NCBI GenBank assembly: GCA_013268835.1
Contig: JABFSX010000003.1
Span: 1 to 64,000, forward strand
Source of the DNA: Candidatus Altimarinota bacterium
GTDB taxonomy: Bacteria; Patescibacteriota; Gracilibacteria; BD1-5; UBA2023
Length of the DNA stretch: 64,000 bases
Reading direction: 5' to 3'
Shown piece after piece: positions 44,442-46,934 of this stretch. The notes beneath the pieces were generated by a model. That model ran no database searches. It had not been told where the DNA came from and was given only the letters and a program-made list of their open reading frames with translations. The translations under genes were made by a program, and so were the position numbers. The stretch's first letter is position 1; each line of letters opens with the position of its first letter.

Positions 44442-44503
44442 ACGTGAGGCAGATTGTATAAAAAATGATTGTCTTGTCAAAATTTTTTTATACAATATCA
44501 CTT

Positions 44504-44962
44504 ATGATTCACCTAATTCACATTTCTGATGGCGAGAAACACTTTGGTGAAGCGGTTACTGAGTATACGAAACGACTCGGGAAAAATATAGAAATCCATA
44601 CCATAAAACCTGTCAAGCATACTGAAATCTCCTATATCAAACGTGAGGAGACAAAGAAATTGATTGAGAAAATACAAAAACTCAAATGAACCGTTATTCT
44701 CTGTGATGAGAGATGAGAAGTCCTTGATACCATAGAATTTTCAGAACTTCTTAGGAAATGACGTAATGAAAGTGAAAATATAATATTCATTATTGGATGA
44801 AGTTATGGGGTAGATATAGATAATCTGAGATTAAATGCCCCTGTACGACTCATTCAGCTATCATCTCTCGTTATGCCCCATGGACTCGCCTATCTCGTGC
44901 TCATCGAGCAAATATATCGAGCTATGGAGATCATCAAATGAAGTGGATATCATCATATTTAA
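44504..44962 (+). CDS. rlmH: 23S rRNA (pseudouridine1915-N3)-methyltransferase RlmH
   Basis: A 152-residue SPOUT-type protein. Its C-terminal SAM-binding knot shows IIFIIGGSYGVD, LSSLVMPHGLAYLVLIEQIYRA and the terminal GSGYHH, typical of RlmH. It methylates m3-pseudouridine 1915 in helix 69 of 23S rRNA. Five TGA glycines, one in the invariant FIIGGSYG. The start ATG at 44504 begins directly with the fold (MIHLIHIS). A small membrane-protein gene starts 14 bases later. Confidence 0.92.
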
Positions 44963-44976
44963 TATATTTTTATTCA

Positions 44977-45435
44977 ATGAATATGACTATTCTTCTTACT
45001 ATTCTTTTAATTTTATTTATTTCGCTGTCAGGATTTCTTTTAAAGGAACTCTTTAAAAAATTTTGATTCTGGAAATCTTTCCAGAAAAAATATAAAAATC
45101 AAACATCTTGGATCTATAATTGAGATAAAAAACCTGGAATGTATACCATTAAAATGGAATGAAACAAAGCATTTAATACAATTATTGGTTTTGATTTCTC
45201 ACTTGGTCCCATAAAGAATATAGGATACGATATTTTTTGATATATGGAATCATCAGATGATTGAATTTTATATTTTTCAACCTATTTAGGAAAATGATGA
45301 GTAGAATTCATATTCTTAATAGAGAGTGGTTATTCTGTTGAAAAAATAGATATATTTCTTATAGAAGATGATTCCTCGATTAAACCAAGCTATCTATTTT
45401 ATCCTCATTGGTGGCAAAAATTGAATCTATTTTAA
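44977..45435 (+). CDS. Small membrane protein of unknown function (152 aa)
   Basis: Not recognised. Seven TGA codons are read as glycine, and the frame is broken in the standard code. An N-terminal membrane helix (residues 3-24, TILLTILLILFISLSGFLL) is followed by a Lys-rich segment and a beta-rich C-terminal domain of about 110 residues (GMYTIKMEGNKAFNTIIGFD; FLIESGYSVEKIDIFLIED). Located just after rlmH, possibly cotranscribed. It is likely an envelope protein but I cannot give a function. Confidence 0.6.
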
Positions 45436-45451
45436 TAAAATTTTTATCTAC

Positions 45452-45481
45452 AAAAAATCCCCAATTCTTGGTAGAATGGGG
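45452..45481 (-). terminator. Terminator of the candidate minus-strand RNA
   Basis: Read on the minus strand, CCCC and ATTCT pair with AGAAT and GGGG around a small loop, followed by ATTTTTTG. It ends no known gene, because the gene to its left runs in the opposite direction. Confidence 0.7.
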
Positions 45482-45877
45482 AAATAATAGGGGAAGATGA
45501 TTGTGCGGCACCTCGAGGACAGCTAGGGTACACTCATATGAGGGCAATCAACACATATCATGTGATTGGTGAGTTCTCACACTCGTCACGATTAAACGTG
45601 AACCTAACTGCCCTTTTGATGGTTTGTTTTGAAAGGACACTCAGTCCTTTTATTTTGGTGGGGACCCATATCCTACCTCTGAATAATTCAGAAAAAAGAT
45701 ATGGGTCCTCATCCGTGTTTTTTGTTTTTGTATGTATGCCGCTACTATTTGTTCTTTTTGTATTGGAATATTTGTAAAACTGTGTTTTTGGATTTGCAAA
45801 CAGGAAGGTCTCTTGAGGAGAGTTTCCTATGATCGGGAAGTCAGGATTTTTTAAGGATCATTCTCTTTCGAGAAGAC
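45456..45877 (-). ncRNA. Candidate structured non-coding RNA (about 420 nt)
   Basis: No convincing protein gene lies here, but inverted repeats do. GGACCCATATC (45662-45672) pairs with 45698-45708 and encloses CTGAAT/ATTCAG. AAAGGAC (45632-45638) pairs with 45644-45650. AGGGCA (45541-45546) pairs with TGCCCT (45609-45614) and encloses three smaller hairpins. AGGAA (45802-45806) pairs with 45824-45828. A GAAA-capped TTCTC stem is near 45861-45874. On the minus strand it is bounded by a promoter (45884-45912) and a terminator (45452-45481). It matches none of tmRNA, RNase P RNA, SRP RNA or 6S RNA by eye. A plus-strand 79-codon frame across it looks spurious. Confidence 0.5.
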
Positions 45878-45883
45878 ATAAGC

Positions 45884-45912
45884 AGTATATCAGTATTTCT
45901 TAAAACTTGCGA
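45884..45912 (-). promoter_or_regulatory. Putative promoter of the candidate RNA
   Basis: On the minus strand, TCGCAA (45912-45907), a 17-base spacer and TATACT (45889-45884). The -10 equals that of other promoters in the window. Confidence 0.45.
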
Positions 45913-46226
45913 GAATATTAGTATTGCAATTTATGTATCGTATTGGTTTATAAGTCTTCTTTCCCTTGTTTTTGGCTCTATATAGCCATCTTTATTAAAT
46001 ATATTAATCGTACAGTTATAAAACCATTTCTGTATACATATTGTATATGTGTACATCTATTGTGCACATAGTATCAGCATCTGGATCTACATACTTAATC
46101 TATTTTTATAAAAAAAATCATATAGCGCTACTGCTCCGCTCAAGAAATAGAAAAGTACCACTATATATAGTGGTACTTTGTATTTATGCTGTACTCTATA
46201 AGAAAACTGGGGAATCCATAGGCTAT
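45913..46226. other. Gene-free stretch with a perfect 28-nt palindrome
   Basis: I see no gene here. The only clear structure is the palindrome at 46152-46179: AAAGTACCACTATA followed by its exact reverse complement, ending TTT. It lies about 50 bases after the rsmE stop (minus strand) and so could be its terminator. The T-run after it is short. Confidence 0.55.
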
Positions 46227-46934
46227 TTATCAGTTAATAAAGCCAAAACCTATGACAATACCTGCTGTTTCTGTTCTGAGTACTCGCTCACCAAATCGAG
46301 CAAATATAAAACCATTATCTAGCATTTTTCATCTTTCTTGTTCTGACCATCCTCATTCTGGTCATACCCAAAGACTCATATATTGGACATCATTCCACTC
46401 TGATAAACGAACTGTCTCTCAGAGGGTATCAAGAACAATAGAGGAACAATCCTGATCTATGGTCTCTCAGATATTATCTGGTAATTTTTCGAGCCAACGT
46501 ATCTCTGGCATAACCATTCCTCCACATTGTTCCAGGGCTTCTCGTGCAATATTCTCAAATCTTTCTATTTTTGCAGGAGTTACTAGGAGCTTTTGGGAAC
46601 GATCTGAACGAAAAAATACAAACTTTGTTATACCAATTTCAACGCCTTTTTGGAGGATATACTCGATTTTCTCATATTTATTCGGCATTGCCTGGTAGAT
46701 ATGTATTTTCTTTTTTGGTTCTGTATTGGGGAATTTTTGTGATTGCCCTCGAAGCTGGATTGATTTTTTATCAATTCAAATAATAGTATACTCTGTTTCC
46801 GAGCCATCTCATGAAAACATGATAATATTCTCGCCAACCTGTACACGCAACACACGTGTAAGTTGGTGAACCATATCAGCATCAGTGATACTCATATCTA
46901 TCTGAAGTGGAAATGTTACAAAAAAACGTTGCAT
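46227..46934 (-). CDS. rsmE: 16S rRNA (uracil1498-N3)-methyltransferase RsmE
   Basis: A 235-residue SPOUT-family protein. MQRFFVTF and HQLTRVLRVQVGENI form the PUA-like N-terminal domain; KKIHIYQAMPNKYEKIEYIL, GITKFVFFRSDRSQ and MSLWVGPEGG with GERVLRTETAGIV form the SAM-binding knot typical of RsmE. It methylates U1498 of 16S rRNA. Several TGA glycines, including the C-terminal one before TAA (FING). Starts 4 bases after a small membrane-protein gene on the same strand. Confidence 0.93.

Follow-up and report, generated by a model that had tools for sequence, protein, structure and literature searches.

The stretch of DNA analysed here, hereafter the window, comprises positions 1 to 64,000 (64,000 nucleotides) of contig JABFSX010000003.1 (assembly GCA_013268835.1) of a Candidatus Altimarinota bacterium of the Gracilibacteria. 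On its minus strand, at 45452-45877, it carries what is almost certainly a stand-alone, single-copy gene for a structured non-coding RNA of about 426 nt, whose transcription we infer from conserved sequence signals. An original prediction, made from the sequence alone, had proposed at this place a structured RNA of about 420 nt, and both the proposal and the length are borne out by the homologues found in nine genomes, by covariation among them, by the fold z-scores and by a non-coding pattern of change. The elements of the gene are given below in the 5' to 3' order of the RNA (P1 to P8 are paired elements).

45884-45913, minus strand: putative promoter, recognised by sequence conservation, with a conserved CTCGCAA block in the -35 region (45913-45907) and an extended -10 element TGATATACT (45892-45884)
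45858-45877, minus strand: P1, a 5'-terminal hairpin with a GAAA loop (RNAalifold; C-G to U-A change in G009)
45835-45845, minus strand: 5' strand of the long-range helix P2, CCUGACUUCCC, pairing with 45603-45613, with double changes at five positions
45802-45828, minus strand: P3, a hairpin with an invariant CUCA loop (45817-45814), six of its nine pairs changed on both sides
45713-45800, minus strand: A-rich, mostly unpaired linker with the conserved motif AAUACAAAAAGAACAAAU (45764-45747)
45662-45708, minus strand: P4, a long hairpin with a nested CUGAAU stem (RNAalifold consensus)
45632-45650, minus strand: P5, a hairpin weakly conserved in sequence (identity 0.41)
45603-45613, minus strand: 3' strand of P2, GGGCAGUUAGG (consensus structure, register check, pair count)
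45586-45601, minus strand: P6, a hairpin whose stem sequence is replaced between genomes with pairing kept in 9/9, the strands being chosen by hand
45571-45584, minus strand: P7, a hairpin with an invariant UGAG (45579-45576), complementary to the CUCA loop of P3
45497-45561, minus strand: variable 3' domain with P8 and inner hairpins (RNAalifold consensus only)
45451-45481, minus strand: predicted intrinsic terminator with an apical stem, a conserved loop ACC(A/C) and a U-run (apical stem and loop in 9/9 homologues)

The homologues, 410-480 nt long, belong to five genera of one family and all lie downstream of rsmE. The RNA strand of the window folds at -125 kcal/mol over 431 nt, against -86.3 +/- 4.8 kcal/mol in dinucleotide shuffles (z -8.0), the opposite strand giving z -4.8; all nine homologues reach z -5.8 to -11.4 on the RNA strand, which has the lower value in eight of them, the two strands of G002 being about equal (-7.2 and -7.3). 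The individual hairpins that had been predicted are present: the 11-bp stem with a nested CTGAAT stem at 45662-45708 is P4, the 7-bp hairpin at 45632-45650 is P5, and the two hairpins placed near 45800-45875 are found at 45802-45828 (P3) and 45858-45877 (P1). The AGGGCA/TGCCCT stem that was thought to close a multi-branch unit at 45541-45614 is the one detail that has to be replaced. It is present here and in near relatives, but it is not conserved and its GGGCA belongs to P2, since according to the comparative data GGGCAGTTAGG (45613-45603) is the 3' strand of the long-range helix formed with CCTGACTTCCC (45845-45835).

RNAalifold finds this helix unaided on the nine full-length sequences. 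It consists of ten pairs (CCUGACU-U-CCC / GGG-C-AGUUAGG), with five positions changed on both sides: pair 3 occurs as U-A, U-G and C-G, pair 5 as A-U and G-C, pair 7 as U-A and C-G, pair 9 as C-G, G-C, A-U and G-U, and pair 10 as C-G and U-A, while the U.C mismatch at position 8 is G-C in two genomes. In a register check, for which an extra bulged A in the 3' strand of three genomes was removed by hand, 92/99 cells are paired, against at most 56/90 in slid registers. The count over P2, P3 and the loop contact described below keeps the automatic alignment, so that the bulged A is scored as three broken cells, and it gives 94.4% paired cells (shuffles, 84.2%), with double changes at 11 pairs and in 27 cells (shuffles, 4.7 and 8.3). 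In none of 500 shuffles do the paired cells, the double changes or the score for covariation come up to the observed values; how many further pair types occur is unexceptional (128/500 shuffles). Structures slid along the alignment drop to 23-55% paired. As to P6, its stem sequence differs between most genomes, while the hairpin stays paired throughout. Finally, the CUCA loop of P3 and the UGAG loop of P7 can form four of four pairs in 9/9 sequences, both loops being invariant, and a kissing contact between the two hairpins is therefore probable.

We think that a small protein-coding gene or a chance fold is hardly credible at this place. If TGA is read as Gly (code 25), the window holds an open frame of 142 codons, and G001 a similar one; the first part of this frame, however, is devoid of ATG, GTG and TTG, the frame is broken by indels of 1-2 nt in other homologues, and most indels between homologues have lengths that three does not divide. 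In seven comparisons the substitutions fall evenly on the codon positions (p 0.12 to 0.96). Pfam gives no match to the frames in the RNA stretch, so that no protein family extends across it. The missing start codons, broken frames, even substitutions and lack of a Pfam match lead us to reject protein coding, and the strong covariation speaks equally against a chance fold. The description of the stretch as gene-free holds in this sense, since its only open frames are unconserved.

The conserved sequence also suggests that the RNA gene has its own promoter and its own intrinsic terminator. The promoter that had been placed within 45884-45912 is there as the extended -10 element, kept in position and sequence among the homologues, with its TATACT conserved in eight of them, and the predicted start, G45877, lies six bases past it. 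The terminator proposed at 45452-45481 is likewise found, as a hairpin (45481-45459) followed by the U-run ATTTTTTG, in which the transcript would end. In a generic sigma-70 scan this promoter was missed because its -35 region is poor; the same scan did not list the terminator at 45452-45481, whose hairpin and U-run were read directly from the sequence.

As far as we can judge from comparative sequence data, this RNA family is new but belongs to a general kind already known, and it matches no Rfam family. At the gathering threshold Rfam 15 finds only tRNAs in the window and in eight homologue loci, and in permissive scans no match at the RNA exceeds or even approaches a curated cut-off; the original statement that it could not be matched to transfer-messenger RNA (tmRNA), RNase P RNA, signal recognition particle (SRP) RNA or 6S RNA is thus upheld by covariance models. 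The idea of a highly diverged housekeeping RNA of one of these four kinds draws some strength from the fact that one of them is unaccounted for: the small SRP RNA (RF00169) has no match at the locus, even at a permissive threshold, nor anywhere in the genome, and is unrecognised in 27/27 genomes of the family, 16 of them near complete, whereas 12-13 of 14 controls match. We nevertheless regard this idea as very improbable. Since the whole family, including members without the RNA, lacks a recognised SRP RNA, this RNA does not simply stand in for it, and a replacement of SRP RNA confined to one subclade was rejected on the same ground. For 6S RNA there is no match in a permissive cmscan of the locus, to which that search was limited. 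The tmRNA (RF00023) and the RNase P RNA (RF00010) resemble our RNA in length and in being stand-alone and single copy, but both were found above cut-off at other places of the same genome (G000:C9:10141-10582 and C13:36970-37325, respectively), and these two identities were rejected. That tmRNA scores 75.9 bits with Rfam and goes unreported by ARAGORN under the bacterial code.

With blastn, strong matches are obtained in four genomes of the same genus and in G012, G009 and G017. Covariance models add G008, with 44.7 bits for model R1 and 66.2 bits for model R2, the latter including G008 itself; the position of this match, immediately downstream of rsmE, supports it independently of the model. 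The comparison with other Gracilibacteria genomes thus reveals an RNA that is conserved, with covariation, among relatives, and its range is narrow: R2 recovers only the nine among 353 genomes of the class and none in the other 344, and the weak matches in other members of the family, inspected by eye, have none of the features of the RNA. Downstream of rsmE in the other genera no candidate was seen, some of these loci being unoriented. A pattern scan of a genome-contig collection returned six contigs, all of Candidatus Gracilibacteria and matching genomes already found, and the same scan of viral contigs returned none. The RNA is either recent, lost in the other genera, or too diverged there to be detected.

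A further conserved element lies before the promoter:

46013-46055, minus strand: upstream conserved element (UCE), TGTACACATATACAATATGTATACAGAAATGGTTTTATAACTG, 43 bp, dyad-rich, 123 bp before the -10 element (pattern matches)

At three mismatches or fewer the UCE is matched in 8/77 genomes of the order, all eight of them RNA-bearing (all but G008), with one match per genome except for a second, three-mismatch match in G009. Because the pattern was built from these eight sequences, exact matches in them arise by construction; what is informative is that the box is absent elsewhere and keeps a fixed distance. The spacing to the -10 element is 122-124 bp in 8/8 genomes over a diverged spacer; local identity is 0.68-0.77 in the UCE against about 0.4 on both sides, the spacer DNA being mostly at background identity. 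The simplest reading is a putative binding site for a regulator acting at a fixed distance, and a factor bound there may control expression of the RNA. That the UCE core serves as an operator throughout the genome was rejected: any other copy there has two mismatches or more, and looser matches are only modestly above control (12 versus 5). In G009, more copies of an AATTATT-type palindrome occur around the upstream box (L007 1250-2300).

What could such an RNA do? The A-rich linker deserves particular attention here, as its motif AUACAAAAAGARCAAAU is present in 8/9 homologues and, with a local identity of 0.84, is conserved above most of the stems. We think that transcription from the extended -10 promoter would begin at the base of P1 and stop at the intrinsic terminator, yielding about 426 nt; that the RNA would fold into a core closed by P2, with P3 following the 5' strand of this helix and P6 and P7 following its 3' strand; that P3 and P7 would probably touch through their CUCA and UGAG loops; and that the core would thereby present the long, mostly unpaired linker with its almost invariant motif. 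Such an RNA would most likely be trans-acting, a ribonucleoprotein scaffold whose linker and invariant loops would be read by one or several lineage-specific proteins. Taken as a whole, an RNA gene with a trans-acting role as a protein scaffold is an explanation that we consider reasonably probable, the scaffold mechanism in itself being put forward more tentatively.

Several points weigh against this explanation. The kissing loops are invariant and the A-rich motif nearly so, such that covariation tests neither; the sequences number nine, some of them close, and the covariation test is not formally phylogenetic. In addition, the RNA was detected in only 5/13 genera of the family, a distribution that speaks against its having a universal housekeeping role.

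The same linker can be read otherwise. One could imagine a regulatory RNA that pairs with target mRNAs through the unpaired A-rich motif and the ACC(A/C) loop of the terminator, and it fits this idea that the motif is better conserved than most stems and that the terminator loop is kept, as ACCA or ACCC, in 9/9 sequences. Nevertheless, 410-480 nt with a conserved long-range helix would be elaborate for a small RNA of this sort, and the lack of any match to Hfq (PF17209) over the cut-off in the 27 genomes of the family weakens at least an Hfq-dependent version, so that we find base pairing unlikely. Still less likely, in our opinion, is a sponge whose A-rich AAN repeats would titrate an RNA-binding protein, as CrcZ (RF01675) does with Hfq/Crc. 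The repeated A-rich stretches recall CrcZ, and the linker of the window and that of three homologues do give sub-threshold CrcZ matches (20.9, 21.6, 22.1 and 16.3 bits), but these scores are far under the gathering score of 95 and plausibly reflect A-rich sequence only; moreover, the absence of a recognised Hfq weakens this idea as well, and a simple sponge would have no need of a conserved folded core.

Coming back to the protein scaffold, the nearest parallels in general architecture are OLE, ROOL and GOLLD, large bacterial RNAs of unknown or partly known function that use kissing loops and A-minor contacts (PMC12286853). Our RNA resembles them in its size and intricacy, its long-range pairing and its probable kissing loops, but it gives no covariance match to them and is shorter (about 426 nt; theirs range from about 600 to more than 800), and unlike ROOL and GOLLD it is chromosomal, beside rsmE, and not near phage tRNA islands. 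A more specific proposal, namely an undescribed ribonucleoprotein or ribozyme-like RNA of one Gracilibacteria lineage, whose core P2 would close and a P3-P7 kissing contact would lock, and whose promoter would work with a box at a fixed distance of about 123 bp, appears to us rather doubtful in that full form. A literature search found nothing on structured RNAs of Gracilibacteria or of the Candidate Phyla Radiation, and those described for these groups seem few. A single-copy RNA of about 426 nt that small genomes retain, whose core is well supported and whose conserved linker is probably accessible, could lead to a lineage-specific ribonucleoprotein.

The genes on either side of the RNA are the following.

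46227-46934, minus strand: rsmE, the upstream neighbour, on the same strand as the RNA (Pfam PF04452 and PF20260)
44465-44962, plus strand: rlmH, the convergent neighbour (Pfam PF02590)

The RNA is adjoined by rsmE in every RNA-bearing genome (9/9). The other neighbour is variable: rlmH in several relatives, a tRNA in G009 and, in G008, a gene that by eye, from its translation, looks prephenate-dehydratase-like. Because the gene on this downstream side differs between genomes and, in the window, is convergent, the RNA is unlikely to be a cis-regulatory leader. A replication origin at the locus was also considered and set aside, the window having no clear GC-skew switch there. In the genome of the window, an open frame of 165 aa without Pfam match (44938-45435, plus strand) lies between rlmH and the RNA; it is not seen in the relatives compared, where the RNA adjoins rlmH or another gene.
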